A program made the translations under genes and the position numbers. DNA of 64,000 nt, from positions 1-64,000 of the forward strand of contig NZ_BAMX01000031.1 of assembly GCF_000963965.1 (NCBI RefSeq). Direction: 5' to 3'. Below are positions 3,783-64,000 of the stretch, piece by piece; position 1 is the stretch's first letter; each line of letters opens with the position of its first letter. The stretch comes from Acetobacter orientalis. GTDB lineage: Bacteria; Pseudomonadota; Alphaproteobacteria; Acetobacterales; Acetobacteraceae. The notes beneath the pieces are model-generated. The model saw only the letters and a list, made by a program, of their open reading frames with translations, searched no databases and was not told the DNA's origin.

Positions 3783-3797
3783 GGCGCTTTACTCCGT

Positions 3798-5045: not shown

Positions 5046-5062
5046 GATCTTTTCTTTTCGTC

Positions 5063-5350
5063 TCAGAATTTGAAAGACAGGACGCGCACCAGCGCATCGG
5101 GTTGGGTTAGAAAAGGTTCCCCCATCTGCCGGATGGCCTGTAGCTGGCCAAGGGCGCGGCTGCAGGCAAAGCCGTAGCGCGCGCGAACTCGCTCGCTGGC
5201 GTCCGTCAGGGCCGTGTCAGCCTTTTCAAGAAACTCCCGAACTGGGTAATCCTGACCGGGTGTGAAGTGTTCGCGTATGACCAGCGATGGAGAGTAACAG
5301 TCGCTCTCCTGCCCATTGGGCCAGCGCACGCGAAAAATCATCTCAGGCAT
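5063..5350 (-). CDS. nitG: Small conserved protein, MSMEG_0570 family (NitG-like)
   Basis: A 95-residue protein starting MPEMIFRVRWPNG. A longer frame upstream lies inside the glycosyltransferase gene; the ATG at 5350 is preferred because it has GGAG about 11 bases upstream and gives the expected N-terminus. It overlaps the glycosyltransferase end by 13 bp. Proteins of this type occur only in nitrilase clusters and are described as nitrogen-starvation response proteins; no biochemical role is established. No membrane segment or metal motif is obvious. Confidence 0.72.
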   Translation of the reverse strand: MPEMIFRVRWPNGQESDCYSPSLVIREHFTPGQDYPVREFLEKADTALTDASERVRARYGFACSRALGQLQAIRQMGEPFLTQPDALVRVLSFKF

Positions 5351-7484: not shown

Positions 7485-8047
7485 TAGGCCACCTGCCGGG
7501 TGCGGGGCTGCGGGCGTAGCAGCCATGTCTGATCCTGCCCATGTGCCGGATAGCGTGCGAGGTCGGCCTGCATGTCATGATGCGGCAGCCCATGCAGGGT
7601 GATGGCACCAAGGCTTTTCCAGTGCAGGCGGCGAAAGAACAGCACATTCTGTTCCTGCACCTGTGCCAGAAATCGTGTGGCTCCAAGCCCGTGTGCAGTG
7701 CTGACCGCCATGCGGATCAGTTCAGCCCCGATCCGTCCTAATTTGCGGTGATCAGCATGAACGGCTAGGCGGGAACCACGCCAGACGCCGGGTTCGGTTT
7801 CATGAATGCGCACGGCACCCACGATCCGATCCGGCATGCCCGCTATGCAGCAAGCCGCGATAATGGGAATGGCAACATCATCGAGCGCATCTCGGTCATC
7901 ATGCGCAAAAACATGTTGTTCGGTACAGAACACATTGCGGCGTAGCGCGTGATAACCGGTGCGTTCCCAAGGTGTGCGGGCAAGGCGCACGACATACTCC
8001 GTGGGAATGAACGGTCGGCTTTCCATGCCATCGAGTAGCGTGTTCAT
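7484..8047 (-). CDS. nitE: GNAT-family N-acyltransferase (NitE-like)
   Basis: A 187-residue GNAT-fold protein. The acetyl-CoA-binding stretch is VHADHRKLGRIGAELIRMAV (the R/Q-x-x-G-x-G/A region), preceded by VGAVRIHETEPGVWRGSRLAV. It overlaps the radical SAM gene as ATGA and the AIR-synthase-like gene as TAATG, so the three are translationally coupled. It belongs to the Nit1C set, where it is sometimes fused to the next protein. Acceptor unknown. Confidence 0.8.
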   Translation of the reverse strand: MNTLLDGMESRPFIPTEYVVRLARTPWERTGYHALRRNVFCTEQHVFAHDDRDALDDVAIPIIAACCIAGMPDRIVGAVRIHETEPGVWRGSRLAVHADHRKLGRIGAELIRMAVSTAHGLGATRFLAQVQEQNVLFFRRLHWKSLGAITLHGLPHHDMQADLARYPAHGQDQTWLLRPQPRTRQVA

Positions 8048-9153
8048 TGTTCATAGGCCGACAGAGAGGAGCACGCACCGCACCGGCCACACCCGGCCCG
8101 GATATCGGTGGATTTCATGTTTGCTTCCCGTAGCATCCGCCCGAGTGGCGCTAGAACTGACTTCATGAAATCGGATGAGGGTGGCGCGTGATTTTCCAGT
8201 GGTGTTCCGGAAATAGGCACGAATGGTACCACAAAGGGATAGACCCCGAGAGCGATCAGCCGTTCGGCCAGAGCCAGAATGTCTGCGGCGGTGTCACCCA
8301 GACCTGCCAGAATGTAGGTGTTGACCTGCCCACGCCCGAAAACCGGCACTGCGCTGGCAAAGGCATCCATATAGCGATCGGCGCTGACCGTAGCCTTGCC
8401 CGGCATGATCTTTTCGCGCACGGCCTGCGTGGCGGCTTCGAGATGCATACCAAGACTATCGGCCCCTGCATCGCGCAGGCGTTGGAACCAGCCATGATCA
8501 CGCGGCGGTTCACACTGGACCTGAAGTGGCAGGTCTACCGCCGCCCTGATGGCGCGAGCGGACTCAGCCAGAACCGCCGCACCCCGGTCGATGACGTTGG
8601 GCGTGCCGGTTGTCAGCACCATGTCACGCACATTGTCCAGTTCCACGGCGGCTTTGGCCACCTCGGCCAGTTGCGCGGGCGTTTTGTGGGCAATGGTGCG
8701 CTCGGCTTCCAGTGACTGGCCAATGGCGCAGAACTGGCAGGACGTACGTCGGTCGGCATAGCGGATGCAGGTCTGGTGTACCGTCGTGGCCAGCGTGTCG
8801 CGCCCGTGCAGTAGGGCGATCTTCCAGTAGGGGATACCGTCCGCCGTCGTCAGCCCGTAAAAGCGCGGAGCCGCAGGAAAGTGGATTGTGCCCAGGGGCC
8901 GCCCATCGTGCAGCAGCGTGCTGGCACCACTTTGGTCGGGCGGGCTAGCCTGAAACGGAGAGCGCTGCGCCCCCGACGTATAGACCGGAACCATGACGGT
9001 TTGCCCCGCGATGGTGATGGTCTTGTGATCCGAAGGGCCAGCTCCGCCCTTGCGGGCAATGCCACCCTTATCGCCGCCGATCTGGAGCCCGAAGGATTGC
9101 AGGTCGGTGACAAGCTTGCGCCCCGAAAGCGTGCCAAGTGTTGGTACGGTCAT
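8044..9153 (-). CDS. nitD: Radical SAM protein, MSMEG_0568 family (NitD-like)
   Basis: A 369-residue radical SAM enzyme. The cluster-binding cysteines are C129, C139 and C142, a wider first spacing than the classical CxxxCxxC. A second group C355, C358 and C361 lies at the extreme C-terminus and could bind an auxiliary Fe-S cluster. It overlaps the nitrilase gene as ATGA (9150-9153). The family is found with the nitrilase in Nit1C clusters, and its reaction is not established. It probably carries out a radical step on the same small molecule as its neighbours. Confidence 0.83.
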
Positions 9154-10124
9154 GGCGCGACCTCATTCGCATGCAAGAAAGACGGGTCGGTTTCACCCAT
9201 GTAATGCACCGCGCGCGCGGGCCGTTGGTCATGCAGTAGGCTCAGCAGTTCGGGGCGGGCGTAATGCCCCACGGAATCCATCATTCGCTTGCGTTTGGTA
9301 ATCAGCCCGAAATCGAGATCGGCAATGACCATGCCTTCGCCTTCGGTCAACGGCGTACCCAGCAGTTTGCCTTCGGGCGAGACGATAGCGGTAAAGCATC
9401 CGCCCCGCAGTGGCCCTTCCAGTGTAGGTTCGCGCGCGATGTCCTTGATCTGGTCTTCAGAGAGCCATCCTGTGGCGTTCACGACAAAACAGCCGGATTC
9501 CAGCGCGTGATGGCGGATTGTAACTTCCATCTGATCGGCAAAGATCTGGCCCACCAGCGAACCGGGAAACTGCGCGCAGTGAATTTCCTCGTGCTGGGTC
9601 ATTAACGCATAGCGGGCAAGAGGGTTGTAATGTTCCCAGCAGGCAAGTACCCCGATACGCCCGATCGCACTCTCGACAACTCTCAGACCGGAACCATCGC
9701 CCTGTCCCCAGACCATACGCTCATGATAGGTGGGCGTGATCTTGCGTCGCTTGAGCAGAATTTCGCCCGTTGCATCGAAAACGATCTGTGTGTTGTACAG
9801 CGTGCCGAAATCGCGCTCGTTTACCCCCAGCACCACAACCATGCCGGTATCACGCGCGGCTTCAGCCACCATGTCGGTCACCGGCCCGGGAATGATGACG
9901 GCGCGTTCGTAAAGCTCCAAATGCTCTCCGCCGAAGCGAAAAGCAGGCTGGATAAACGAGAAATAGGGATAATAAGGAACAAAGGTTTCAGGAAAGACCG
10001 CCAGCTTCACACCTTTTTCGGCGGCATCGCGGATGGCCTGGCAGACTTTCCGGGCTGTACCCAGACCATCGTCACCAAGGACGGGGCTGATCTGGATGGC
10101 AGCGGCGCGAACGATACGGGACAT
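9150..10124 (-). CDS. nitC: Nitrilase, Nit6803/NitC type
   Basis: A 324-residue C-N hydrolase. The catalytic triad is visible as Glu in FPETF (E46 from the chosen start), Lys in [12 protein letters not shown] (K128) and Cys in ACWEHYNP (C162). The last matches true nitrilases, which hydrolyse R-CN to the acid plus ammonia. The start is ATG 10124, preceded by GGGAGG; the longer frame from 10160 overlaps the upstream gene and lacks a comparable site. It is the marker gene of Nit1C clusters. In Pseudomonas such a gene is needed for growth on cyanide. A nitrogen-scavenging role is likely. Confidence 0.9.
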
Positions 10125-30015: not shown

Positions 30016-31182
30016 TCACTTTCCTTGTGTTTCTACTTCTTGGCCCGGATATGGCACGCAATACTCAATTTCTGGCCAGTCTGTATAGCCCCACCATTGC
30101 AAAATCTGCTCACGATAGTGGTCTGGCATTTTCTTTGCATACCTCGTTACCATTGTTATGGTCTGCCAGCCTCCATCCTCCTTGAGCTTAAGAAGGTCTT
30201 TGTACGCACAATAGTGCCATGTAGCAAATGTATGCCTCAGGCAGTGCGGAGACATATCGGGAACGAACTGCCGCTTGGGCCACTTTTCGTTTTTTGGCGT
30301 CCAGACCCTTTCTGATCCCGGGAGTCCAGCGCGGCGATTCGCAAAAGCCCAAGCGGACTTAATCTGGCCGCCACCAGTCCGATTCGTATCAGAATACGAT
30401 TCTCCGACGGCCCACCTCATGATTCCATTTCGATCACGCCTCTTGACTGCTGGACGGAACACCCGACCATCGCGCCACGGTATCCCGCGTAACGCAATGA
30501 GCACCACTTTGGGTAAGTCAATATGCCGTTCATTTCCCTGCTTCTGCCAAACGACTGCCCTTGCTCCATCTAAATCAACATCCTGCCAATCTAGTTCCAG
30601 AGCCTCTGACATGCGGCAGCCTGTCGCTATAAGAAAGACGAGCAGGGGGCGAATATGCGGCGCAGCCTCATTAACTAAAGAGGTAGCCTCCTCTGGCCGC
30701 AAGAACTGCATTCTGACTTGTTCTACTTTGGGGCGCTCAAAAGCTGGTTTGTCGCACCAGCCACGAATGGCTGAAAATTCCAAAATTGCTCTGAGCGGCG
30801 TCAATACGGCTCTTATCTTGGTAGCAGCCTTTGCCTCGTTTCCTGCCGTGAGAATGGCGGAATAAGCGCCATCAAGGTCTTGCTGCTTTATAGTGTTGAT
30901 TTTCTTGCCCTTAAAGTGGGCTAGTAACCGTTCAATGTGAGTGATTGTTGTCGCGCTCCTTTGAGTCGCAGCGAGGTAGGCCGCCGCGGCTCGGTCAAAG
31001 GTTATTACTGCGCGCTTACCATAGACACTCTCTTGCCAGAGTTCCGTTTCTCTCTTTGCTCTGTAAGCCTCTGCCTGCTTTTGGTTATTAGTTCCTGTGC
31101 TTTCATATATGCTCTGTCCGCCGATGGTTCCGCGCACATAGAGCGTTTCACGGCCTGGGCGTTTGACGACTTTGAGCGACAT
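30016..31182 (-). CDS. int: Tyrosine-recombinase integrase
   Basis: A 388-residue phage integrase. An N-terminal arm-binding domain (about 1-60) and SAM-like core-binding domain (60-150) precede the catalytic domain with R190 (TGCRMSEAL), H313 and R316 (HCLRH), W339 and nucleophile Y348 (VTRYAK). The stop codon lies 31 bp from the tRNA fragment, the usual placement. Its start codon is embedded in the preceding gene, with a 178-bp overlap. Confidence 0.93.
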   Translation of the reverse strand: MSLKVVKRPGRETLYVRGTIGGQSIYESTGTNNQKQAEAYRAKRETELWQESVYGKRAVITFDRAAAAYLAATQRSATTITHIERLLAHFKGKKINTIKQQDLDGAYSAILTAGNEAKAATKIRAVLTPLRAILEFSAIRGWCDKPAFERPKVEQVRMQFLRPEEATSLVNEAAPHIRPLLVFLIATGCRMSEALELDWQDVDLDGARAVVWQKQGNERHIDLPKVVLIALRGIPWRDGRVFRPAVKRRDRNGIMRWAVGESYSDTNRTGGGQIKSAWAFANRRAGLPGSERVWTPKNEKWPKRQFVPDMSPHCLRHTFATWHYCAYKDLLKLKEDGGWQTITMVTRYAKKMPDHYREQILQWWGYTDWPEIEYCVPYPGQEVETQGK

Positions 31183-32149: not shown

Positions 32150-32346
32150 GGCGCGCCTCCTAGGTTGCGGATAGCTTCTGCACACTCCTGTGCAGCGCAC
32201 ATACGCTCGTCGGCATAAACCCTCTCATCATCGCCATCCGCCTCTTAGCGCTGGTCATAATAGGCATTACTGACTTCTGTTGCGGCCTTCGCGCACCGTT
32301 CCCGCTCCCCCGCCAGCATCTCGGCTATTTGGGCGGGGGTGGTCAT
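32146..32346 (-). pseudogene. Small phage gene interrupted by an in-frame TAA
   Basis: ATG 32346 opens MTTPAQIAEMLAGERERCAK and continues to a TAA at 32245-32247 after 33 codons. The same frame then continues as clearly coding sequence (EADGDDERVYADERMCAAQE) to a TGA at 32146-32148 that overlaps the next start as ATGA. The total would be 66 codons. Coupling at both ends shows that this was one gene; the stop is a recent nonsense mutation, an assembly error, or a case of readthrough. Confidence 0.7.
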
Positions 32347-32807
32347 ATTGTTTGTTCCCATACAAATTTAGGATGTGCAGTAACGTCCTGATGGTCTCGC
32401 CCGATACGAGACTGCCAGTTTGCGGGATTGGCCCCCGTAGTCTGTGCTATTATACGCCAGCCAGATCCCCGCAATGATGCGCCGCTTTCTGATTGTAGCG
32501 TATATGTAATGAGTTTTTGCCACCCCAATGCTCTACAGGCCCGCCAAGCCGCCCCGTATAAAAATGAACAAGTGTTTTTAGGGGCGCTATCAATCACGCA
32601 GCATCTAGTCACTTCTGCCGTGAGGCCATCTTGCCTATGTCTGCTTACAGGGCGCCCTACAATTGCTACACCGACCATATTCTCACCATATCCAGCACCT
32701 AAAGCAAACAAGGCCCCTTGCGGCGGCTTATTGTGTCTGTGGTGTTCTCCCACAAAAGCAGATGCAGATTTTATCGTTACGGGGGCGAGGTATAATTTCC
32801 CCTTCAC
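32343..32807 (-). CDS. XF1762-family protein (GNAT-like)
   Basis: 154 residues. The pattern SASAFVGEHHRHNKPPQG, VGVAIVGRPVSR, EVTRCCV and FLYGAAWRACRALGWQKLITYTL matches the XF1762 family, a GNAT-related group common in prophages; function unknown. GTG 32807 is preferred to ATG 32834: it overlaps the upstream stop as GTGA and has GGAGA upstream, while the ATG start would overlap that gene by 31 bp. It ends in an ATGA overlap with the interrupted gene. Confidence 0.75.
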   Translation of the reverse strand: MKGKLYLAPVTIKSASAFVGEHHRHNKPPQGALFALGAGYGENMVGVAIVGRPVSRHRQDGLTAEVTRCCVIDSAPKNTCSFLYGAAWRACRALGWQKLITYTLQSESGASLRGSGWRIIAQTTGANPANWQSRIGRDHQDVTAHPKFVWEQTI

Positions 32808-32980
32808 GCCTTCTCTCCTGCGCGGGTGTTCCATGCGGCACCATCGTCAAAGCAAGACCTTGCGTATCGTGCCAACGCAGGGAGGTCATGAGATGATAGT
32901 TTCAGGGCTTTTTGTATTTCGAGCGCAGCAGCCTCTCCATACTCCCGCCCGTTTCGGGTGGGGCGAAGTTCCTCGCTCAT
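32804..32980 (-). CDS. Small phage protein (58 aa)
   Basis: MSEELRPTRNGREYGEAAAL opens a 58-codon frame that overlaps the previous stop as ATGA and the next start as GTGA. Tight coupling on both sides and a coherent helical sequence support it. No function can be given. Confidence 0.6.
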   Translation of the reverse strand: MSEELRPTRNGREYGEAAALEIQKALKLSSHDLPALARYARSCFDDGAAWNTRAGEKA

Positions 32981-37384: not shown

Positions 37385-38119
37385 TTATTTCCACATCCAC
37401 TTAGCAACAACGCGACCGCTGATGACGAGATCATCTAGTGGCCGTTCATAGCTGTCATAGGCTGGATTTATGGAGGAAATCTTGACTTGGATTGGGTCAG
37501 ATGAGCCAAAAACAACCTCAAGCCGCTTCATAACTAACCCCAGCCCGTCCCAAACAACGTATACACCGGGCGGGGTAGGGGTTCTGTGAGCTAAGTCCAC
37601 TAAGACCCGCTCGCCAGAATGGTAATCTGGCTCCATGCTATCGCCTCGTACTTGAATAATGGCGAGGGACTGTATGTTGTCGGTGAACGCCTCGAGAAAA
37701 CGGGCAGGGATTTGCCACTGATCAACAGGGATATTCCCGTTTTCTGATGCAACATGATCTATAAGTGTACCGGGGCCAGCGCCAGCTTGGACATCATACT
37801 CCGGTATTACTAACCGACCGCTTATTTCGCTAATCTGCCGAGCTGGCCTTTCTTGAGTGTAAGCCTCTGTATGCACCTTATCTAGATCAACGCGCTTATT
37901 ATCGCCGTCACTGCGGAATATATCGGCTGATACACCCAATATGCTAGATAGCCTCTCGCGCACATCTTCACGCAAATTCTGCGGAGAGCCTTTCTTTACA
38001 TATTGCTGAAGATACGCATCGTTCTTCCCAAGAGCCAAAGACAAACTCTTGAGAGTATGTTCGGAGTTGCGTCCGATTAGCTCGAGAAGTGCGAGCCTAG
38101 CTTTATCGAGAACAGTCAT
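37385..38119 (-). CDS. CI-like prophage repressor with S24 peptidase domain
   Basis: 244 residues. An N-terminal HTH (about 15-65, LKSLSLALGKNDAYLQQYVK) is joined to a LexA/CI-type S24 domain with the catalytic serine S161 (RGDSMEPDY) and lysine K198 (VMKRLEV). A112-G113 is a likely self-cleavage bond. It should hold the prophage silent by binding the sites at 37313-37350 and 38141-38191 and be inactivated by RecA-stimulated cleavage. It diverges from the Cro-like gene at 38206. Confidence 0.9.
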   Translation of the reverse strand: MTVLDKARLALLELIGRNSEHTLKSLSLALGKNDAYLQQYVKKGSPQNLREDVRERLSSILGVSADIFRSDGDNKRVDLDKVHTEAYTQERPARQISEISGRLVIPEYDVQAGAGPGTLIDHVASENGNIPVDQWQIPARFLEAFTDNIQSLAIIQVRGDSMEPDYHSGERVLVDLAHRTPTPPGVYVVWDGLGLVMKRLEVVFGSSDPIQVKISSINPAYDSYERPLDDLVISGRVVAKWMWK

Positions 38120-56685: not shown

Positions 56686-57114
56686 ATGGCCACAAAACTG
56701 TTTAACGTAGGCCGAGATTGCCGCGTTGTGCTGATCTACAACGGCAGCCGCGTTGATCTGCCTACCGTCACAGGGTTTCAGTCTCAGCAGCAGACACATC
56801 AGCTAACGTCTGCCCCGCTGAACGATATGCCGATGTTTTTTGACGTGCCCAATGGGTGGCGGGGACAGTTCGACTTTCAGCGCGATAACGACAATGCGGA
56901 CGACCTGTTTGCTGAAATTGAGAGCGGTTTCTGGTCTGCTGGCTCAATGATTACTGGCAACATTTACCAGTACGTTGTCGAGACTGACGGCACCACAAGC
57001 ACATATGAGTATGTGGGGGCCACCTTGCGCTTATCCGACGCGGGCAACTGGCGCTCCGAAAACATCACTACGCAGCGCATTGAATTTACTGCGCGTATTA
57101 GGAACAAAATCTAA
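56686..57114 (+). CDS. Tail tube protein
   Basis: 142 residues from ATG 56686, with GGAGG directly upstream. Follows the sheath gene as tube genes do. The sequence (KLFNVGRDCRVVLIYNGSRV, LTSAPLNDMPMFFDVPNGWR) resembles Mu/P2-type and lambda-V-like beta-barrel tubes. Its stop overlaps the chaperone start as TAATG. Confidence 0.82.
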   Translation: MATKLFNVGRDCRVVLIYNGSRVDLPTVTGFQSQQQTHQLTSAPLNDMPMFFDVPNGWRGQFDFQRDNDNADDLFAEIESGFWSAGSMITGNIYQYVVETDGTTSTYEYVGATLRLSDAGNWRSENITTQRIEFTARIRNKI

Positions 57115-57455
57115 TGAGCGCAGAGACCATAACTGACGCCAAGGGGCGCAAAATTGAGGTACAGGAAGTGGTGGGCAGCGCTCTTGCGCGCCTTACCCGC
57201 TTAGCTGGCGCATCTTTTGGCGAAAATGCATGGACAACCGGCACTCTGGCCCGCGCCACTGTGCGCTCAGTTGCTGGCGTACCAACTCCCGCAGAAGCCA
57301 GAAGCGTCAAGGAGCTGGATGGCTTGTGGGATATTGTTGACCCGGATGCTGCGGAGGCTGCATTAAAATGGCTGATTGCCAAGCAGGAGGCCGTGGCAAC
57401 AGACGCAAAAAACTCTATCGCACCCCAGGATTCCAGCAGCGCTGCTGGCTCGTAA
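57114..57455 (+). CDS. Tail assembly chaperone, short form
   Basis: 113 residues, helical and Ala-rich. It takes the place of gpG (lambda) or gpE (P2) between tube and tape measure genes. The frame ends at TAA 57453-57455; ribosomes that slip at 57407-57413 make the long form. It probably coats the tape measure protein during tail assembly. Confidence 0.82.
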   Translation: MSAETITDAKGRKIEVQEVVGSALARLTRLAGASFGENAWTTGTLARATVRSVAGVPTPAEARSVKELDGLWDIVDPDAAEAALKWLIAKQEAVATDAKNSIAPQDSSSAAGS

Positions 57456-57592
57456 GGAACGGGGTGCCATACACCACCGCGATGGAAGAAATGAGTGACG
57501 CCGAGGTTATGGCGCACTCCATCGCTTTTTCTGAAATGGAGGGCTACCGGTTTAACTGGAAGTCCATGACCATGGAGCAACTCAATGCCTAG
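57114..57592 (+). CDS. Tail assembly chaperone, -1 frameshift long form
   Basis: Slippage at A AAA AAC (57407-57413) joins the first 99 residues to a second domain read in the -1 frame (KLYRTPGFQQRCWLVRNGVP to EGYRFNWKSMTMEQLNA), giving about 159 residues. The second frame has no convincing start of its own and is exactly in the -1 register, matching the G/GT and E/E+E' organisation found across tailed phages. Only a minority of ribosomes would be expected to shift. It ends in an 8-bp overlap with the next gene. Confidence 0.85.
57407..57467 (+). promoter_or_regulatory. Programmed -1 ribosomal frameshift signal
   Basis: Slippery heptamer A AAA AAC at 57407-57413 in register with the zero frame, a 6-base spacer (TCTATC), then a stem GCACCCC (57420-57426) pairing with GGGGTGC (57461-57467). 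The loop contains a further hairpin, CCAGCAGC/GCTGCTGG (57433-57448). The zero-frame stop lies inside the structure. Confidence 0.85.
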
Positions 57593-58070
57593 TTTGACAC
57601 CCGTTGAATTTGCCGGGCTGTTGGCTGGCATGGTTGCTGAGGTGGAAAACGCTGTACATGAGGGGCTCGAAAAGGCGACCAAGATTGTGCAGCGTGAAGC
57701 CAAAGCCGAACTTGGCCGCTACCAAGATGCTGCCGGGCCATTCCCCGCGTGGGCGGAGTTGGCTGATAGCACCAAGGATGACCGCGTACGGCATGGCTAC
57801 CCTGAAAATGAGCCGGGTCTGCGCTCTGGCGGTATGCGCGATAGCATTGAGCGCAACGTACAGGGGCGCACCGGGCGTGTTGGCTCCAATGACGACAAGA
57901 TGGTTTATTTTGAACTTGGCACCACTAAACAGCCGCCGCGCTCAGTGTTGGCGGGGGCGCTAATTCGTAAAGAAGACGAAGTGGCGAAAGTAATAGGCCA
58001 TCATTTTGTTGGGCATTTATTCGGTGAGCAGGTGGTGGGTGGTGCGCTACCCGTTATTAACGATGAATAA
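57585..58070 (+). CDS. Gp10/virion-morphogenesis-like tail completion protein
   Basis: 161 residues. VENAVHEGLEKATKIVQREA, then AWAELADSTKDDRVRHGYPE, LRSGGMRDSIERNV and MVYFELGTTKQPPRSVLAGA form the HK97-gp10/Mu-gpG-like completion pattern. Such genes usually lie before the tail tube, so its place after the chaperone is unusual. It overlaps the opposite-strand gene at 58057 by 14 bp and is the last rightward structural gene in the window. Confidence 0.75.
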   Translation: MPSLTPVEFAGLLAGMVAEVENAVHEGLEKATKIVQREAKAELGRYQDAAGPFPAWAELADSTKDDRVRHGYPENEPGLRSGGMRDSIERNVQGRTGRVGSNDDKMVYFELGTTKQPPRSVLAGALIRKEDEVAKVIGHHFVGHLFGEQVVGGALPVINDE

Positions 58071-58350
58071 TGCCGTGGCGCTCTAACCAGTCGTAAACCA
58101 GAATAAAAATTGCACCACCAACAATAAGAGAGCCCATCAGGAACATTGGGACAAAATACCCGATCAGGGCGCATTGGGCGACCGTTAGCCTATCCCACAA
58201 CTCGCGCAAATCGCGAGGCGGGGCCGGGGTGGCATTTATGGTAATGGGACGGGGAGATTGGCGCCGCTTTATTGCGGCCTGCCGAGCGCGCCACATTGGT
58301 GTGCCGCCATCGTCAAACTCGTCATCGCTTTCCCATAGAGGGTTTGGCAT
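58057..58350 (-). CDS. Small membrane protein, unknown function
   Basis: 97 residues. A hydrophilic basic N-terminal half (MWRARQAAIKRRQSPRPITI) is followed by a membrane span (about 58-86: CALIGYFVPMFLMGSLIVGG). Start ATG 58350; the longer frame is unlikely to be coding. It is the last of three minus-strand genes inserted into the tail region. Confidence 0.55.
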   Translation of the reverse strand: MPNPLWESDDEFDDGGTPMWRARQAAIKRRQSPRPITINATPAPPRDLRELWDRLTVAQCALIGYFVPMFLMGSLIVGGAIFILVYDWLERHGIIHR

Positions 58351-58387
58351 TGGCCACCGTATTTTGTGAGTTTTTGATATGGGAACC

Positions 58388-58711
58388 TCACAACCACTCC
58401 GCAACCCCACCATGGCGCGAGCAGGTGCCGCGATGGTGGAGGCTAAAGCTGTAGCTACCATCACCGCATTTTGCTGATGCCCCCGGTGGTGCTTGCCCAG
58501 ACTTGGTGTGCGCGGGGGAGTGAACGGTTTTGCCGTCCATATTGCGGTAGTGTTTGTGCTCTTGAAGCTCAGCCTCGTTGGGCGCGCTCTGCGGGGCTTC
58601 CTGATAGGCTGGGGCCTTGAAGGCGAGGGCCGGGGGTGTGAGAAAAGCCCCAAGACACAAAGCTATAGAGTAGCAGAGTGCCGCTTTTGGAATGTTATTT
58701 ATGTTCACCAT
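58388..58711 (-). CDS. Secreted DUF3761 protein
   Basis: 107 residues. A signal peptide (hydrophobic ALCYSIALCLGAFLTPPALA, cleavage likely after ALA) leads to a low-complexity middle and the C-terminal motif CGDGSYSFSLHHRGTCSRHG, the DUF3761 pattern of conserved Cys and His, likely metal-binding or disulfide-linked. ATG 58711 is preferred over a GTG at 58732 that overlaps the upstream stop. Periplasmic or extracellular; role unknown. Confidence 0.75.
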   Translation of the reverse strand: MVNINNIPKAALCYSIALCLGAFLTPPALAFKAPAYQEAPQSAPNEAELQEHKHYRNMDGKTVHSPAHTKSGQAPPGASAKCGDGSYSFSLHHRGTCSRHGGVAEWL

Positions 58712-58728
58712 ATCTGGCCTGCCGGATT

Positions 58729-59139
58729 TCACCCTCTAGCGATAATTGCCCGCTCTATGGCTAACTTTAAAGGGCCAATCATTGCGTAATCCCGGCATTC
58801 AATGGTTCGACTATCGCCACCAGTTGAGCGGAACCGCAAATAGTGTTTGGGATTTAAGGCCAAGTAAGTGAAAGCAATGCCGACGATGGTTGTAAGCCCA
58901 ATTACGATAAATTCACCGCTTTGGTCAGTCTTAGGGTGATTATTTCCCAACAAAATCGCTGCGCCTGCAAGTGCGGAAAATGCGAGCAATACGGTTGCTA
59001 GTACCCCATAGATTTGGGTATTCTGCCGCCTAATCCACACGCTATCGATGTGCGCCATCGCAAAAGAAGCATCCCAATATGTGAGTAAGTATTTTGTTAC
59101 TGAAATTGGGCCTTCTTTGTAGAAATATTCTTCGCTCAA
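58729..59139 (-). CDS. DUF6232-type two-span membrane protein
   Basis: 136 residues. ISVTKYLLTYWDASFAMAHI and a following IDSVW segment precede two membrane spans (about 45-63 and 76-94), then a basic cytoplasmic tail. This is the PH-like domain plus two-helix layout of DUF6232. Unknown function. First gene of the minus-strand trio. Confidence 0.62.
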   Translation of the reverse strand: MSEEYFYKEGPISVTKYLLTYWDASFAMAHIDSVWIRRQNTQIYGVLATVLLAFSALAGAAILLGNNHPKTDQSGEFIVIGLTTIVGIAFTYLALNPKHYLRFRSTGGDSRTIECRDYAMIGPLKLAIERAIIARG

Positions 59140-59297
59140 ACTAACCTCCCGTTAAATTTTCCTCACCTTAGCAGATCGGGGAGGGCTGGGGAGTCAGAAG
59201 ATTATTTCAGCATCGATTTACTATTTTTCTATACAGCAAATGGTTAATATGCACAGATCTGCAAAAGCTTGCTCATCAATAGAATAGGATATACCTC

Positions 59298-59513
59298 ATG
59301 AATTCCCGACTACAGATTAATGAGCACAATTACTCTAGAGAGATTAGTGGCAAAACGGTGAACGTTGTTTACCTTGAAATAAATCGCAAATTTACATTCG
59401 GCTCAATTACAGTGAACGGCTTACCACCCCTTCGTCCTATGGATGGAACTTTCCATAGCCGAGATGAAATAGAGGCTGAAGTTATTAAAATAGTAAACAA
59501 TATGAAATCTTAA
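59298..59513 (+). CDS. Small orphan protein (71 aa)
   Basis: MNSRLQINEHNYSREISGKT; a small alpha/beta protein with AT-rich codons unlike the structural genes. It stands alone between minus-strand genes. No family recognised. Confidence 0.45.
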   Translation: MNSRLQINEHNYSREISGKTVNVVYLEINRKFTFGSITVNGLPPLRPMDGTFHSRDEIEAEVIKIVNNMKS

Positions 59514-59625
59514 CTCCTTATCTTAGAACAAACTAAGCTTTCTAGTTGAACTGAAATTATGGGCAGGCTAGAGTTGATATAGGCGAGCGGCGCCGAGTAC
59601 ACTCTGGGCTACCTTCGGGGCGCAG

Positions 59626-59673
59626 CTACAAAGATGGTTTCCCTTAGGATGGCAACCTATCCTTACTTTGTAG
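59626..59673 (-). other. Stem-loop spanning the end of the DUF3800 gene
   Basis: CTACAAAG (59626-59633) pairs with CTTTGTAG (59666-59673), and AGGAT with ATCCT inside. The stop codon of the DUF3800 gene lies within the stem. No T-run, so a processing or protective hairpin is as likely as a terminator. Confidence 0.4.
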
Positions 59674-60553
59674 TGGGATCGCAGAGACGGGGGCTCGCCG
59701 CCAATTTTTCCAAAGATTGAAAAGCTTGTAAATTTTTCCCGCTTAACACGCGGTTCCAAAAAAAGGGCAATGCAAGAATGCCTGCTCCAAAAATTTTACC
59801 ATCTAAAGAGGCGCAGCGTAGAATTAGTTTTTCAAGATATTCTTGACTTGGATTTGGTTGCCGCGCTTGAGGGAGAGCTTTATATAAGGCGCTTACTATA
59901 AAATCAGCAGTTTGCAGACCATAAAGCTCAGAGTTTGGGGCAATTGCGATGTTGGTTGGATTAAATACTGAGAAGTCTATCAGGCCTTTACTTAAGAAGG
60001 TGTTTCCACTTTGGAACTGCAACCATAGTCTTGAAAAATAATTTCCAAATTCTGGGCACCTTAGACCTCCTCTATCAGACAAAACTACGCTTATATCGGT
60101 GGGGCGGCTTGCAAGGGAGCAGGCTTCATTGTGGTTTTTGCAATATTTTGTAACACGCTCCAGAAGCAATCTTAGCATCCAGTTATATAGTGTGTTCCTT
60201 TTTTCAGAAATAACCTCGGCCCGGTCGTTCTTATAGCCTCGCATGTTATCTTTATGTGAAACAGCAGTGAACCACCGGAAGGTTCCCAGCGCCAATTCCT
60301 GACAAATTAAGCTTCTTTTGTTATTATTTAATCTGGCGAAATGTAAATCTCTACCGAAGGGGAGGCCCGCTTTATCTTTGGCGCCATTTATTAGGTGGAC
60401 TAACTTACCCTCGTCTGTGACCTTGATGACTATCCCGCCCAAAACAAACCATTCTGAGTTTGAGTCGCTCTTGCCTTGGGAGTGAGGCTTCAATCCATCA
60501 TCCCCAGCTTCATCAACATAGAAAATATATCGTGATTTTTTGCCCTGATACAA
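59663..60553 (-). CDS. DUF3800 protein (RNase H-like fold)
   Basis: 296 residues. The N-terminal FYVDEAGD (D14, E15, D18) and the later GLQTADFIVSALYK (D217) are the two acidic motifs of DUF3800, a family with an RNase H-like fold found often in prophages and defence islands. Nuclease activity is predicted, not shown. No ATG is available: the frame opens at TTG 60553 with GAG upstream, and a stop lies five codons before. AT-rich, distinct from its neighbours. Lone gene on its strand. Confidence 0.75.
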   Translation of the reverse strand: MYQGKKSRYIFYVDEAGDDGLKPHSQGKSDSNSEWFVLGGIVIKVTDEGKLVHLINGAKDKAGLPFGRDLHFARLNNNKRSLICQELALGTFRWFTAVSHKDNMRGYKNDRAEVISEKRNTLYNWMLRLLLERVTKYCKNHNEACSLASRPTDISVVLSDRGGLRCPEFGNYFSRLWLQFQSGNTFLSKGLIDFSVFNPTNIAIAPNSELYGLQTADFIVSALYKALPQARQPNPSQEYLEKLILRCASLDGKIFGAGILALPFFWNRVLSGKNLQAFQSLEKLAASPRLCDPTTK

Positions 60554-60796
60554 AATGCACTGCTCTTAATAAAATAGGCGCCCTGGCGCCGGATTCTCTA
60601 GATGCTCTTATCCTATGTATTTTTTTTTGCTCAAGTAAAGATGAGCAAACAGTGAATCCGCAGTCATGTGGACGGAGTTAAGTAGTCCCGCCACTGTCAG
60701 CCCTATCAGCCAGCCTCTCGGCAACAACCCGGAGAGCAAAGGACTTTACCGCCACCACGGACGCATGGGTGGCGTCCGCCGTCATGTGGGTGGGAG

Positions 60797-61147
60797 TCAG
60801 GAGGCGTTAAAGTCCATAGCTCCCTTGAGCATCGCCAGCGCCATTCGCCGTTGCGTTTCGTTCATGTCGCGCCAAAGATTGAGCCATGCCGCCTCTTCGG
60901 CCGTTGCCGCCTCTTGCCCCCGTCTACCTTGCGCCTCGTGGGCAAGAATGGCTTTTGCCAATAGCTCAGCTAGACCTCGTTCGGCATCATCTAGCCTTCC
61001 AACCATCGAGGCCGGATCGAAGCTGTCCGCGACACGCTGCACGATTTCCGCGTTAAGGGAGCGGTGGTTTTGTCCAGCTGCTTCCTCGGCCCGCCTTTTC
61101 AGGTCGGCGGGCATACGAATCCTGAATTGAGGGTCATCTTTTGCCAT
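60797..61147 (-). CDS. Arc-family repressor A
   Basis: 116 residues from ATG 61147. PQFRIRMPADLKRRAEEAAG then QNHRSLNAEIVQRVADSF is an Arc/MetJ ribbon-helix-helix domain. The C-terminal half is a longer helical extension. It diverges from a second Arc-type gene at 61234, like mnt and arc in the P22 ImmI region. It may bind the palindrome at 61208-61222. Confidence 0.82.
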   Translation of the reverse strand: MAKDDPQFRIRMPADLKRRAEEAAGQNHRSLNAEIVQRVADSFDPASMVGRLDDAERGLAELLAKAILAHEAQGRRGQEAATAEEAAWLNLWRDMNETQRRMALAMLKGAMDFNAS

Positions 61148-61207
61148 GTCACACGAATGGCTCATTTTTCCGTTGACATAAAGGCCCCAAAGTGAGACAA
61201 ATTTTCC

Positions 61208-61222
61208 GTCACATAATGTGAC
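61208..61222. promoter_or_regulatory. Palindromic operator between Arc-type genes
   Basis: GTCACAT-A-ATGTGAC, perfect, directly before the ribosome site (AGGAGA) of the rightward Arc gene. A half-site GTCACA occurs near 61148. Confidence 0.6.
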
Positions 61223-61233
61223 AGGAGAAAGCA

Positions 61234-61428
61234 ATGCAAGTTCGAGACTGGCCACAATTCCGGGTGCGAATGCCTTCACACCTTTTGGAGCAATTAAAAT
61301 CTGACGCTCAAGACGGCTACAGAAGCCTTAATTCTGAAGTTGTCATGATTTTAGAAAAACATTTTTCGGCAAAAGAAAAGGCACCGGGCCTGTCGCCAAA
61401 CCGCCCCGATGCCTCTCACGCAGAATAA
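61234..61428 (+). CDS. Arc-family repressor B
   Basis: 64 residues, close to Arc in size. RDWPQFRVRMPSHLLEQLKS then YRSLNSEVVMILEKHF is a ribbon-helix-helix domain. AGGAGA precedes the ATG. First gene of the unit that includes the antirepressor; in P22 the arc gene represses ant in the same way. Confidence 0.82.
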   Translation: MQVRDWPQFRVRMPSHLLEQLKSDAQDGYRSLNSEVVMILEKHFSAKEKAPGLSPNRPDASHAE

Positions 61429-61440
61429 GGAATATTCGCT

Positions 61441-61905
61441 ATGAAGAATGATAGCATATCAAGAAAGCCTTTTTCAATACCAGCGCACACTCACCAAGTT
61501 TGCGAGAAACCTGTGCGTTATTTCGCGCCGGTAAACGGTAGCCTTGATTTCCCGTTTGTATCTCTTGACGATGTACTTAACGCGATGCCGATTCCCAATG
61601 ATCAGAAGAGGATTGTCGCGGAAAAGTTGTCTATTGGTGAATACGCTGACGCCGTAAGGGTCATAAATACCAACGGCGGTCAGACCGCGATTGTTCCTCA
61701 TTATATATGCAATGGCCTTATTCACGCCTTTACCGAAAATGGGCTTATCTCTCCTAGGTTCGGCGCTCAGATAACGATGGGATCATACTCAGCCTTTAAA
61801 AGCATCAATAAAGGAATGTCCGCACAGGATCGCGTGTCCGCAATGTTTTCGATTGTTAAGCAAGATCGCGATGACGACATGGCAATTGAAGGAGATGCAG
61901 CATGA
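61441..61905 (+). CDS. Unknown protein upstream of the antirepressor
   Basis: 154 residues. No recognised domain; VSLDDVLNAMPIPNDQKRIV followed by AEKLSIGEYADAVRVINTNG suggests a KilA/BRO-like small DNA-binding domain but this is weak. It lies between the Arc gene and antirepressor; its stop overlaps the latter as ATGA. Confidence 0.5.
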   Translation: MKNDSISRKPFSIPAHTHQVCEKPVRYFAPVNGSLDFPFVSLDDVLNAMPIPNDQKRIVAEKLSIGEYADAVRVINTNGGQTAIVPHYICNGLIHAFTENGLISPRFGAQITMGSYSAFKSINKGMSAQDRVSAMFSIVKQDRDDDMAIEGDAA

Positions 61906-62741
61906 GCAAGCAACTCACAACCATCGACTTCCATGGCTCGAAGCTTGTTGCAATAGCTGGTGATCGTCCTGAAACAACAATGGTAGCGATGAAGCCAGTT
62001 GTGGAAGGAATGGGATTGGATTGGAAAACGCAGCACCGCAAACTTTCATCCCACCCGGTACTTTCAAAGGGTATGGTCATCATGACCATACCCGCAGAAG
62101 TTAAAGGTACACCCATAACGAAGGCACCCTCAGAAGGGGGAGATCAGGAGATGGCTTGCCTTTCCCTTGACCTCCTAAACTTCTGGCTTGCCACGATCCA
62201 CCCTGACCGGATCAAAGATCAGACCGTCCGCGCTCGGGTAATAGAATATCAGACTGAATGTGCCCGCGTACTGTTCAACCACTTCTTCGGTAAGGCCATT
62301 GCTGCGGGCGGGCACCTGAACGCCCAACAAACAGGAGGGATATTCAAAGCTGGCCTCGGCAAGCTTAAGCGGGAACTACTAGCGGAGATTGCGCCGCAGT
62401 TAGCGGCCTTAGCAGAAGAACTGCGCACTATACACCGCCCCGTTGGCGTGGCCGTTGTCACGAACCGGACAGCGAAGCGTTGGCTTGATCATTACGGCAT
62501 CACCAAACGACCAAAGGGTTTAGCGTTGCGCGTTTCCAATGCGCTTGCGCGTCAGTCAATCCGCATGGGTTACGCGGTTAGCTACACAGCAGAAGAGGAA
62601 AAGCGGACGTTCCATGAAGTTGTAGCTAACGCTTACTTCACCGTTGGCGCAGGTCGCCATCTTCTGCCTAAGGCTGTAAAAGGCCAGAAGGAAATGGGAT
62701 TGGAGACCACCCCAACCCCTTTTCTCAAAACGCCAGCGTAG
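61902..62741 (+). CDS. ant: Phage antirepressor, P22 AntA/P22_AR_N type
   Basis: 279 residues. The N-terminal domain (TIDFHGSKLVAIAGDRPETT, VAMKPVVEGMGLDWKTQHRK, then SLDLLNFWLATIHPDRIKDQ) is the P22_AR_N domain; the C-terminal half carries another helical domain with an HTH-like TAKRWLDHYGITKRPKGLAL. Such proteins bind and inactivate CI-type repressors, giving a second induction route. Downstream of an Arc-type repressor as in P22. Confidence 0.85.
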   Translation: MSKQLTTIDFHGSKLVAIAGDRPETTMVAMKPVVEGMGLDWKTQHRKLSSHPVLSKGMVIMTIPAEVKGTPITKAPSEGGDQEMACLSLDLLNFWLATIHPDRIKDQTVRARVIEYQTECARVLFNHFFGKAIAAGGHLNAQQTGGIFKAGLGKLKRELLAEIAPQLAALAEELRTIHRPVGVAVVTNRTAKRWLDHYGITKRPKGLALRVSNALARQSIRMGYAVSYTAEEEKRTFHEVVANAYFTVGAGRHLLPKAVKGQKEMGLETTPTPFLKTPA

Positions 62742-62778
62742 CAACGAGCCACCCTTTCGGGGGCGGCAACGCTGGCGT
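62730..62778 (+). other. Stem-loop at the end of the antirepressor gene
   Basis: ACGCCAGCGT (62730-62739) and ACGCTGGCGT (62769-62778) pair perfectly over 10 bp, enclosing a GCCACC/GGGGCGGC-type inner hairpin. It overlaps the ant stop codon. No T-run; possibly mRNA stabilising or an RNA-binding site. Confidence 0.45.
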
Positions 62779-62824
62779 GTTTGACCAAGTGGCGGCGTCA
62801 TTTGAGGGCAGGAACGGCGTGAGA

Positions 62825-62992
62825 ATGAGCAACCACGCCCTATGCGAAAACCTTGGTTACGCTGCGCGCGTGGCAATGGACTTTGCGGGTAAGCGCGTTC
62901 TTTCAAGAGAAGCGGCCCGCGAGTATCTGCAAATGGGAGCTAGAGCCATCATGCAGATGTCGGCTGAATTAGAAGAAGATGCAATCGCTTGA
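62825..62992 (+). CDS. Small phage protein (55 aa)
   Basis: MSNHALCENLGYAARVAMDF; helical, ending in a repeat of MQMSAELEEDA. ATG 62825 is preferred to a GTG at 62777 inside the stem-loop. Followed by a strong terminator, so it closes the ant transcript. Function unknown. Confidence 0.5.
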   Translation: MSNHALCENLGYAARVAMDFAGKRVLSREAAREYLQMGARAIMQMSAELEEDAIA

Positions 62993-62997
62993 AGGGG

Positions 62998-63024
62998 AGG
63001 CGGCTGGGTGGCCGCCTTTTTTTT
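62998..63024 (+). terminator. Rho-independent terminator of the ant unit
   Basis: AGGCGGC-TGGGTG-GCCGCCT followed by eight or more T. It also faces the end of the opposite-strand gene at 63023. Confidence 0.85.
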
Positions 63025-64000
63025 ATTCATTAAGCGGTATGATCGATAGGCTTTCACTGGCTTCTCTGGCGGCCTCAACGATGGTTATGCTGGGGGCAGT
63101 TAAGCAGCGGGAGGCTGAGCTGACGACTAAATCTTTGTAGATCTCTTCGTCTTGCTGAGGAATTTTCGCTGATTTAAATACGGAAACCCAAAACAATGCA
63201 TTGCCAAATTTCTCGGCTTCTGTCGGGTGGTGCCGTATCTTCAAATATTTATTTAGGTAAAGGCATTTATCGTCTGGTGTTATGTTTGAACGCAAGATAT
63301 TCGGGGCAGTGTAGTCAACTGGTGGCTTGCGTTTGGAGGGCGGCAATATGAAGGGAAAATCTTCATTAGCCATATAGCATCCTCTAAAGATTGAATTATT
63401 TTCATTCGAAGATAGGCAGGCATCAATCTTGCTTACTTCATCTGCTGTATCGTTGGTTGCCGTTACTCCTATATCGCTTTCAGTGTATGGGTCGCCTCCT
63501 GCTAAATATTCAAATGCGGGGTCCGGCTCCCAATTTTTGGGTAAATTATATTTTTTAACCACAATAGATTCCGCCAGTTTATCGTTTTTTTCTACTTGCT
63601 TCTCAGGGTCTCGCTCTGGGTTTTGGCCGGATGCTATTTCGTTGGTTAATTCGTCAAATTCTATATCTTGTATGGGGGCAATTTTGTTAGAAACAAAAAC
63701 TGCCCATGCCTCTTTGCCTTCTTTAGTTTGCGCTGGGTCGTAATAAGATTTCGCAAGCAATTTATATTCTTGAGGGGGTCTGTCTCCCCATGGGTTGTCT
63801 TGAAAAATCTCAACAGTAGAGGACGGCGCGCCGTTTTTGATAGCCACATTAGTAAGGTAAACTGCGGTTGCTGCCCAATCTGACGGCCTACCACCTGTTA
63901 CGGCAACGCTAATGTTGATTGGATGCGGGCCATTTACGCCTATGTTTCTAAATGCGTTCCATACTTTGAATGGCAACACAGTTCCCTGCAACTTTGCGTT
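63023..64000 (-). CDS. Unidentified protein, 5' end outside the window
   Basis: At least 325 residues; the frame is open to the right edge with no ATG inside, so the start lies beyond 64000. Near the visible N-terminus VWNAFRNIGVNGPHPINISV and AVYLTNVAIKNGAPSSTVEI, then hydrophilic, Asn/Glu/Lys-rich sequence. Codon use is AT-leaning, unlike the virion genes. No family recognised. Confidence 0.6.
   Translation of the reverse strand, partial: NAKLQGTVLPFKVWNAFRNIGVNGPHPINISVAVTGGRPSDWAATAVYLTNVAIKNGAPSSTVEIFQDNPWGDRPPQEYKLLAKSYYDPAQTKEGKEAWAVFVSNKIAPIQDIEFDELTNEIASGQNPERDPEKQVEKNDKLAESIVVKKYNLPKNWEPDPAFEYLAGGDPYTESDIGVTATNDTADEVSKIDACLSSNENNSIFRGCYMANEDFPFILPPSKRKPPVDYTAPNILRSNITPDDKCLYLNKYLKIRHHPTEAEKFGNALFWVSVFKSAKIPQQDEEIYKDLVVSSASRCLTAPSITIVEAAREASESLSIIPLNE

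Follow-up and report, generated by a model that had tools for sequence, protein, structure and literature searches.

What is a block of non-structural genes doing in a prophage at the point where the tape measure gene should begin, and does the tail continue behind it? The window analyzed here comprises the first 64,000 nt of an Acetobacter orientalis contig (C36), and it closes inside such a block. From the letters alone the block had been proposed to be lysogeny-expressed cargo, possibly including defence or superinfection control, or else the mark of a prophage that had lost its distal tail genes. Patterns detected by comparison of sequences indicate that it is very probably an immI-type secondary immunity region (an "ant moron") with lysogenic cargo, which separates two tail genes of an Acetobacter prophage of the contractile-tailed type.

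Extent of the island and the tail genes on both sides

The island measures 6.1 kb and occupies positions 58071–64175 of the contig, between a gp10-like gene and the tape measure gene. The strand switch placed after the gp10-like gene is present, with this gene (57585–58070) on the plus strand and the first genes of the island on the minus strand, and so are the genes that were named, i.e. two Arc-family repressors (PF03869), a P22_AR_N antirepressor, a DUF3800 protein, a DUF6232 membrane protein, and a small DUF3761 protein. The list lacked two RNA-level features, the DUF3800-VII RNA at 59582–59704 and an antisense terminator hairpin at 61379–61414. GC content is 48.3% in the island compared with 57.0% in the preceding late genes and 56.3% in the tape measure gene. 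The features are as follows.

57585–58070, plus strand: gp10-like tail completion or neck protein, left border of the island (PHROG 26, E 3e-6; PHROG 5, E 1e-5; aligned with 5 relatives)
58057–58350, minus strand: membrane protein of 97 aa, start probably the ATG at 58350 (relatives)
58388–58732, minus strand: small DUF3761 protein with an N-terminal hydrophobic stretch, secretion judged by eye (PF12587, 6.5e-33; recurrent cargo, 7 loci)
58729–59139, minus strand: DUF6232 membrane protein with 2 hydrophobic segments (PF19744, 5e-17)
59582–59704, plus strand: DUF3800-VII structured RNA (RF02967, 40.1 bits, gathering cut-off 36.2)
59663–60553, minus strand: DUF3800 protein with a predicted RNase HII-like fold (PF12686, 2.6e-12; AlphaFold2 pLDDT 82.2; best PDB matches RNase HII/H2/HIII)
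60577–60590, minus strand: terminator-like hairpin after the Mnt-like gene (consensus scan only)
60797–61147, minus strand: Mnt-like repressor of the RHH type, 116 aa with the ATG at 61147 as start (PF03869, 6e-13)
61148–61233, no strand: divergent control region of 86 bp (palindrome GTCACATAATGTGAC at 61208–61222; TTGACA at 61173–61178)
61234–61428, plus strand: Arc-like RHH repressor, 64 aa (PF03869, 4e-11; matches solved Mnt and Arc)
61372–61441, minus strand: predicted sar-like antisense RNA of about 70 nt (start, end, and expression all predicted)
61379–61414, minus strand: conserved hairpin overlapping the final codons of the Arc-like gene, with a U-rich tail on the minus strand as in an antisense terminator (model and covariation)
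61441–61905, plus strand: 154-aa protein between the Arc-like repressor and the antirepressor (homologue at the same place in locus L023)
61477–61448, minus strand: promoter-like site TTGAAA-18-TATCAT with TG (sigma-70-type scan)
61902–62741, plus strand: antirepressor with a P22_AR_N head (PF10547, 4e-29; PHROG 524, 2e-46)
62725–62785, plus strand: possible terminator hairpin where the antirepressor gene ends (-33.7 kcal/mol, z -2.2; matched by 5 of 200 shuffles)
62777–62992, plus strand: small ORF of 71 aa following the antirepressor gene (L039 has a relative in the corresponding position)
63023–64000 and on to 64132, minus strand: 369-aa protein with an N-terminal hydrophobic stretch (relatives in the islands of L038 and L051, weaker in L025)

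Directly after the island and just outside the window lies the tape measure gene (623 aa, 64176–66047), and behind it come genes of circularisation-like, baseplate, gp47/J, and fibre type, so that the proposed look past position 64000 for tape measure and baseplate found both; the contig ends at 76813, with the lysis genes and the right end of the prophage beyond it. A decayed prophage without its distal tail, an idea that had nothing in its favour beyond the window edge itself, is rejected as practically untenable because the island is immediately succeeded by ORFs for tape measure, baseplate, and fibre, all of them open. The expectation that tail genes normally run uninterrupted here was right for part of the group: gp10-like gene and tape measure are separated by at most 200 bp in 20 of 41 compared prophages (16 bp in the empty-site relatives phiKX1 and phiKX2), but by more than 1 kb in 12 of them.

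Likeness of the core to the P22 immI region

The core of the island reads, in order, Mnt-like gene (minus strand), 86-bp control region, Arc-like gene, 154-aa gene, and P22-type antirepressor gene (all plus strand). The cassette lies inside the late structural genes with the antirepressor codirectional with them, and Arc-like gene and antirepressor are probably co-transcribed. The P22 record shows sieA and mnt on the minus strand, a control region that holds the operators of arc and mnt, arc (plus), sar (minus), and ant (plus), all between genes 16 and 9, sar being a 70-nt RNA with its terminator at the end of arc. In PMC8022706, PMC2629481, and PMC11016777 this immI region is described as a secondary immunity region or "ant moron". 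Gene order and strands are the same in the Acetobacter core, with a start-to-start distance between the repressors of 86 bp versus 90 bp in P22, and shared features are two divergent RHH repressors, a P22_AR_N antirepressor behind the Arc-like gene, an antisense terminator where the arc gene ends, and opposite-strand cargo that includes a membrane protein. Both regions sit within late structural genes and are very variable among relatives, that of P22 as described in PMC2629481 and PMC8022706. For P22, read-through has been proposed to tune expression of the tailspike (PMC2629481), and transcription through the island might act on the tape measure in a similar way. There are also differences. 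The P22 region occupies the gap between genes 16 and 9 whereas the present one separates a gp10-like gene from the tape measure in a contractile-tailed Acetobacter phage, an additional 154-aa gene lies between arc and ant, the hairpin is still within the coding sequence of the Arc-like gene, at its last codons, instead of following the stop, the antirepressor has a different C-terminus, and the cargo includes DUF3800 and its RNA. No SieA homologue was identified.

The likeness extends to the proteins. With its start placed at the ATG at 61147, the 160-aa ORF beginning too early, the Mnt-like repressor matches P22 Mnt from residue 1 (38% identity over 72 aa, E 2e-14), the Arc-like repressor matches P22 Arc (40% over 30 aa, E 7e-8), and the antirepressor matches P22 Ant in its N-terminal half only (29% over 130 aa, E 3e-15, BLASTP). 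A PDB sequence search with the antirepressor gave chance-level matches only, and the 154-aa protein had no match in Pfam, PHROG, or PADLOC. The control region holds a perfect 15-bp palindrome that is a candidate operator, its arm length being reached by 27 of 500 shuffles; the compared prophages contain 12 RHH pairs in divergent orientation, and in only 4 of these were such palindromes better than 90% of shuffles. Core-to-core distances in these pairs range from 107 to 164 bp, with 113 bp in the present prophage and 114 bp in P22.

A separate primary immunity region is present in the prophage, with an S24 repressor (37385–38119) and a weak P22_Cro-like gene. If the analogy with P22 holds, the Mnt-like protein would keep the arc-ant promoter shut in the lysogen while leaving the leftward cargo open to expression, and infection or loss of Mnt would allow the antirepressor to be made briefly. 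Its production may be limited by the Arc-like protein together with a short sar-like antisense RNA that would cover the beginning of the following gene; the target of the antirepressor could be a CI-type repressor, either the prophage's own S24 protein or that of another prophage. Bipartite immunity of the P22 type, known from enterobacterial phages with short tails, would thereby extend to temperate phages of acetic acid bacteria with contractile tails, a morphology reported for such phages (PMC8566455).

Antirepressor cassettes and an antisense hairpin in related prophages

An antirepressor was found beside the tape measure in 18 of the 41 prophages, before it in 7 and after it in 11, and all 18 carriers are prophages of acetic acid bacteria. 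None was seen on both sides; with a probability of 0.09 for such a lack of overlap by chance, this exclusion does not reach significance, and the stretch after the tape measure (site 2) was incomplete or its circ gene not found in L026, L028, L036, L037, L039, L040, L043, L055, L057, L058, and L019. The set is in part defined by itself, an antirepressor being any protein with a phmmer match of E<=1e-5 against one of 11 antirepressors taken from these loci. The compared prophages are matches down to E about 1e-20, excluding the better G161 and G278 near contig ends, and the count of 41 was made after removal of L044, L045, L047, L048, L049, and L052 as duplicates of named loci, of L035 (no tape measure behind gp10), and of L016 (no gp10 match); L013, L015, L017, and L018 duplicate L028, L027, L023, and L024, respectively, and phiKX1 and phiKX2 count as two despite near-identical tails. 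The antirepressor heads have been exchanged among P22_AR_N, KilA-N, ORF6N, KilAC (with a sub-threshold Rha match), AntA, and Bro-N. A search of 200 genomes of the family for a DNA linker common to the antirepressor 3′ ends found it in 1. Komagataeibacter phages phiKX1 and phiKX2 have the same set of tail genes (sheath 80% identical) and likewise carry divergent RHH genes, hairpin, and antirepressor beside the tape measure, but their cassette follows the tape measure, has a KilA-N head, and is accompanied by no gp10-side insert. Acetobacter phage phiAX1, an unrelated phage of a different type, has in its structural region an Arc|Arc-x-KilA-N cassette of the same layout with the antisense hairpin. 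The island of L023, located at the other site, holds an antirepressor cassette, DUF3800, and an RNA together, and a Gluconobacter island holds an Mrr-like endonuclease.

The hairpin at the end of the Arc-like gene occurred in all 14 cassettes read, with a tail of 6–9 T in 10 on the antisense side versus 0–2 on the sense side. In its stem 108 of 112 cells are paired and 4 of 8 pairs are changed on both sides, the unpaired cells coming from L043, which is two columns out of register. A model built from these 14 cassettes, 13 of them belonging to the 41 prophages, matched 16 of the 18 antirepressor carriers (all but L024 and L051) and none of the 23 prophages without an antirepressor; 13 of the matches are expected by construction because those cassettes built the model, and among carriers outside the building set the hairpin was found in 3 of 5. 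The model has no match to P22 sar, so the likeness to sar is one of place and not of sequence, and Rfam gave at this place a sub-threshold antisense-RNA match only (ctRNA, 21 of 50 bits, E 0.7). Seen across these prophages, the switch is a module in which the antirepressor head changes while repressor pair and antisense hairpin stay.

The promoter-like site at 61477–61448 has a score reached by 1.3% of control windows and predicts a 70-nt RNA, the length of P22 sar. The case for it rests on its place, since a sigma-70 scan of the whole island was no richer than shuffles (7 sites versus 7.1); in a control on P22 the annotated sar promoter was picked, but 17.5% of control windows scored equal. 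An alternative explanation, less probable but to be taken seriously, is that the hairpin is a simple terminator keeping stray minus-strand transcription out of the Mnt-like gene. This would fit the 8 of 14 cassettes in which the promoter-like site is absent (it is weak in 2 more), but would not account as readily for a hairpin that is retained, where P22 has its sar terminator, among cassettes whose neighbours differ, or for the 4 cassettes in which such a site, at <=3% of control windows, predicts RNAs of 70–79 nt.

The DUF3800 gene, its RNA, and other cargo

The suggestion of cargo with defence or superinfection control stands for the core, which has immI anatomy of an immunity or superinfection-control type, and for the presence of cargo; that some of the cargo is defence-like, i.e. 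the RNase HII-like DUF3800 beside a structured RNA, is plausible. The DUF3800-VII RNA runs tail-to-tail with the DUF3800 gene and overlaps its 3′ end by 42 nt, and this convergent geometry was shared by all 10 loci in which both were found. Among 29 other viral DUF3800 loci, 23 had no RF02967 or RF02968 match. In 7 sequences, of which three are closely related, the outer stem of the RNA is paired in 49 of 49 cells, and 6 of its 7 pairs have changed on both sides. Minimum-free-energy folding of the RNA alone was no better than shuffles (z -0.5), so support comes from model score and covariation. Among known systems it is closest to the DUF3800 motif RNAs (RF02967, RF02968) that accompany DUF3800 proteins: it scores over the family cut-off and adjoins a DUF3800 gene, here within an Acetobacter prophage immunity island; the accessible portions of PMC10910872, PMC11701678, and PMC7657543 give no function for these RNAs and proteins.

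The AlphaFold2 model of the protein was obtained from a 22-row alignment, the single-sequence model being unusable (pLDDT 34). Against the PDB it gave Z 11.5 to 1uax_A (3.2 A over 165 residues), and rows 1–18 were RNase HII/H2/HIII by title. A PDB sequence search with the DUF3800 profile gave chance-level matches only. Identity to RNase HII/H2 is only 12% over the 165 residues, and TM-scores normalized by query length are only 0.33–0.40 in the Foldseek RNase H2/H3 rows. Predicted fold and an N-terminal D-E-x-G are shared, but the full motif is DE-x-G-D-x-G, unlike the DE-x-G-R-G of RNase HII. D14, E15, and D18, kept in 22 of 22 alignment rows, and D217, kept in 21, are candidate catalytic acidic residues. 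We infer from the predicted model that DUF3800 may act as an RNase HII-like nuclease, with its convergent RNA binding, guiding, or restraining it. The island offers a small setting in which DUF3800 and its RNAs can be studied, since the predicted RNase HII-like enzyme and, on the facing strand, a structured RNA lie together in the type of locus that holds superinfection-control genes in P22.

A broader reading, which we consider rather unlikely, would see two RNA-based controls here: a new family of sar-like antisense RNAs as constant core of cassettes that move across the sides of the tape measure and swap heads, and DUF3800 with its RNA as a lysogen-expressed, RNA-dependent (guided or RNA-inhibited) anti-phage unit. 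Unlikely, too, is a locus that is first of all for defence, in which nuclease and RNA block incoming phages and the immI cassette is an incidental neighbour. The predicted fold, the constant convergent RNA, the similar association in the L023 island, and the Mrr-like endonuclease in Gluconobacter would be consistent with it, but PADLOC gave no match at E<=1 among 10 proteins (8 encoded in the island, not counting its two RHH proteins, and 2 from the second insert), and DUF3800 was found by profile in only 2 of 49 loci searched, this prophage and L023, and thus is not the constant part of the island. Very unlikely is ordinary lysogenic-conversion cargo whose regulators serve the island genes alone, with no action left on prophage immunity. 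Cargo content does vary widely between the compared prophages and likeness to P22 does not prove the target, yet the antirepressor has been kept in its 18 carriers despite head exchange and the antisense hairpin in 16 of these.

Among the remaining cargo, the 369-aa protein had no match in Pfam, PHROG, or 50,697 phage records. It aligns weakly (18–36% identity) with three proposed relatives, so those in L025 and L026 may be distant or due to chance. The 198-aa ORF at 58057 is probably too long, and a membrane protein of 97 aa is likelier because relatives match only the C-terminal part of the longer ORF; in all 10 loci found, the present one included, this gene is oriented against the tail genes.

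A probable immunity region ahead of the tape measure

The island at 58071-64175 of the Acetobacter orientalis contig C36 (76,813 bp; parent genome 2.9 Mb) is real, intact and interpretable, and is best read as a P22-type immunity region in variant form that carries a conserved hairpin on the antisense strand and, as a passenger, a predicted nuclease with its RNA. The sequence shows the layout of the genes, their homology and synteny, the conservation of the hairpin and of the RNA, and a predicted protein fold. The strand switch that the original prediction placed at 58057 is confirmed, as is the non-structural character of what follows, tail genes not being found between 58071 and 64175. The accompanying suggestion that the distal tail genes had been lost is contradicted by the sequence past 64000, where both tape measure and baseplate are present in C36, the 623-aa tape measure beginning right after the island and baseplate and fibre genes following. 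The prophage also carries terminase and contractile-tail genes, and its main features are these.

30016-31182: integrase, a prophage gene
37385-38119: S24-type repressor, facing a weakly matching P22_Cro-like gene
59582-59704, plus strand: DUF3800-VII RNA (Rfam score 40.1 bits, cut-off 36.2)
From 60797, minus strand: Mnt-like RHH repressor, best start giving MAKDDPQ...
Next, plus strand: Arc-like RHH gene, then a 154-aa protein without assigned function, then an antirepressor with a P22_AR_N domain
64176-66047: tape measure, 623 aa (PHROG 28, E 4.5e-12; PHROG 794, E 3e-7)
66339-69400 (6340-9401 of compared locus L002): second insert behind the tape measure, with umuD-umuC, a membrane protein and a secreted DNA/RNA endonuclease

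After the second insert come circularisation-like, gp44-like, spike-like, gp46, baseplate J, gp48 and fibre genes, some named by synteny; the tail was read as far as the fibre, the right end and lysis genes falling past the end of C36. C36 54176-76044 has an identical counterpart in an IMG/VR contig, which therefore probably comes from the same genome. The gene immediately ahead of the tape measure is on the opposite strand, so late transcripts would have to run on across the island or be started anew. Terminator-like hairpins in 58000-64000 number 14, against 7.2 in shuffles (sd 2.6), about twofold. At the tail chaperone position (57114-57592) two ORFs, 57114-57455 and 57368-57592, overlap in different frames, possibly reflecting a programmed frameshift, and a Mom-like protein at 32343-32834 on the minus strand (PF25680, E 1e-7) could indicate DNA modification as in phage Mu.

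The Mnt-like protein has 38% identity with P22 Mnt over 72 aa, aligning from residue 1, and 86 bp separate its gene from the Arc-like gene, compared with the 90-bp control region of P22, which holds the arc and mnt operators. Gene order is the same in the P22 record, with sieA and mnt leftward and arc and ant rightward; there, the antisense RNA sar lies between arc and ant and the whole region between structural genes 16 and 9. PMC2629481 calls such an immI-type region an "ant moron", gives ten types among sixteen genomes and mentions a possible effect on tailspike expression. The cassette arrangement is thus already known in principle, and what differs here is the phage type and the place; among the open-licence papers listed, none dealt by title or abstract with a secondary immunity region of the P22 kind, or with an antirepressor, in acetic acid bacteria. 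In the proposed mechanism the leftward genes would be expressed in the lysogen, the Mnt-like protein would repress the arc-ant promoter, the Arc-like protein and an antisense RNA would bring about shut-off, and the antirepressor would act on an S24 repressor.

A conserved antisense hairpin

The final codons of the C36 Arc-like gene contain a hairpin (61379-61414) followed on the minus strand by a U-rich run, at the same junction where the 70-nt sar RNA of P22 ends. The same hairpin occurred in all 14 cassettes read (13 prophages and the Acetobacter phage phiAX1), with 6-9 T in the following 10 nt on the antisense strand as opposed to 0-2 on the sense strand. The stem was paired in 108 of 112 cells, four of eight pairs had changes on both sides, and none of 500 shuffles reached the covariation score. 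A covariance model searched over 48 sources (971 kb) scored strongly (E<1e-5) at 18 separate positions, namely the 14 used to build it, three more antirepressor carriers (L036, L038, L026) and L067, and did not match P22. Among the prophages compared, 16 of 18 antirepressor carriers had the hairpin (L024 and L051 did not), versus 0 of 23 others. In L067 (2799-2851; G073, a genome of the same family) it has, some 0.9 kb away, a copy of the linker that occurs at antirepressor 3' ends.

A promoter-like site in C36 (TTGAAA-18-TATCAT with TG, 61477-61448) predicts an RNA of about 70 nt starting at the first codon of the gene after the Arc-like gene. Sites reached by at most 3% of control windows predict RNAs of 71 nt in L014, 72 nt in phiAX1 and 79 nt in L046; those in L021 (8%) and L027 (24%) are weaker, and 8 of the 14 cassettes have none. 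C36 thus likely makes an antisense RNA here; as a general feature of the cassettes it is only a possibility.

Distribution and cargo

A gp10-anchored search (21 named loci) matched 41 of 397 Acetobacteraceae genomes, and 41 distinct prophages having gp10 and tape measure formed the comparison set. The two genes were at most 200 bp apart in 20, 200 bp-1 kb in 9 and more than 1 kb in 12. An antirepressor lay between them in seven (C36, L014, L024, L025, L026, L043, L046), after the tape measure in 11 (L021, L022, L023, L027, L028, L036, L038, L039, L041, L042, L051) and at neither site in 23; none of the 41 was seen to have one at both, an exclusion that could be chance (P 0.09) with several stretches at the second site open-ended. 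All 18 carriers were Acetobacter, Asaia, Komagataeibacter, Gluconobacter or Tanticharoenia, the genus of L014, L046 and L051 being taken from the genus codes they share with named contigs. A divergent RHH pair was detected in 12 of the 18, core to core 107-164 bp (P22 114, placed by hand), and antirepressor heads varied among P22_AR_N, KilA-N, ORF6N, KilAC with a sub-threshold Rha match, AntA and Bro-N.

The phages phiKX1, phiKX2 and phiAX1 are those of Omata et al. 2021 (PMC8566455), in whose main text the words "antirepressor" and "tape measure" do not occur; the GenBank records of phages from that study name Arc-type repressors and KilA-N proteins. In phiAX1 a leftward RHH gene, a rightward RHH gene, an unknown gene and KilA-N lie behind a lysozyme-like gene, and head and tail genes differ from those of the C36 prophage.

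Antirepressors with unrelated heads had a common PFxKxPE-like C-terminal tail (window 62690-62745; L021-L043), and many of their genes (L021-L043) a conserved DNA stretch across the stop codon, as if a joint for head exchange. In two Acetobacter prophages (L027 10001-12893; L014 reverse 2376-6579) gp10 was broken and only the C-terminal part of the tape measure was left, the regulatory cassette lying alongside it. In phage phiKM1 (L105 27649-30709) the stretch from the head-tail genes to the tail sheath held a transposase and KilA-N gene, making it another site for such cargo; the hairpin model had no match there.

Cargo types, C36 included, were a 97-aa membrane protein (10 loci), DUF3761 (7), secreted nuclease (3) and UmuC (2), with DUF6232 in C36 only. 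The example of P22 sieA suggests that the membrane proteins may serve in superinfection exclusion. A Gluconobacter island ahead of the tape measure contained an Mrr-like restriction endonuclease (L043 16912-17523), an Asaia island there a Hint-domain protein (L025 15928-17421), and Acetobacter malorum (L039) also had umuDC behind the tape measure.

The DUF3800 gene and its RNA

Adjacency of DUF3800 genes and RNAs is already known, Rfam families being named for this neighbourhood, and in PMC10910872 DUF3800 is reported to have an RNase H fold by AlphaFold2 and to be linked with ncRNAs. A profile search of 49 loci found DUF3800 in C36 and L023 only. In C36 the RNA overlaps the end of the opposite-strand gene by 42 nt; in L023, with its antirepressor cassette at the other site, a DUF3800-IX RNA lies 1 nt behind the gene, convergent. 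The Rfam scan covered seven of the related sources, and in class-wide searches RF02967 turned up in 2 of 385 genomes, the window's being one of them, and RF02968 in 2 of 289; at the three new loci the gene was convergent in L069 and L072 and absent within 1.5 kb of the RNA in L071. Setting aside the one on the window's contig, 29 of 30 viral DUF3800 loci remained for comparison; 6 of these had RF02967 or RF02968, convergent each time. Gene and RNA thus occurred together at 10 loci, convergent in all 10, the independent loci being fewer because L095, L098 and L101 are near relatives. Eight of nine computed gaps fell at -45 to +40 nt, the other being 752 nt in L084, where the gene looks interrupted. 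In L101 the gene is frameshifted and the RNA (2283-2365) keeps the same place as in L095 and L098. All 49 cells of the outer stem of the RNA were paired, and six of its seven pairs had changed on both sides. The RNA may control or guide DUF3800.

The predicted DUF3800 model (pLDDT 82.2, 22-row alignment) had RNase HII/H2/HIII as its first 18 structure matches (the best with Z 11.5 and 165 residues aligned at 3.2 A), and Foldseek gave E 3e-4 with TM 0.37 by query length. D14, E15, G17 and D18 were invariant in the 22 alignment rows, and the RNase HII active-site motif likewise begins DE-x-G.
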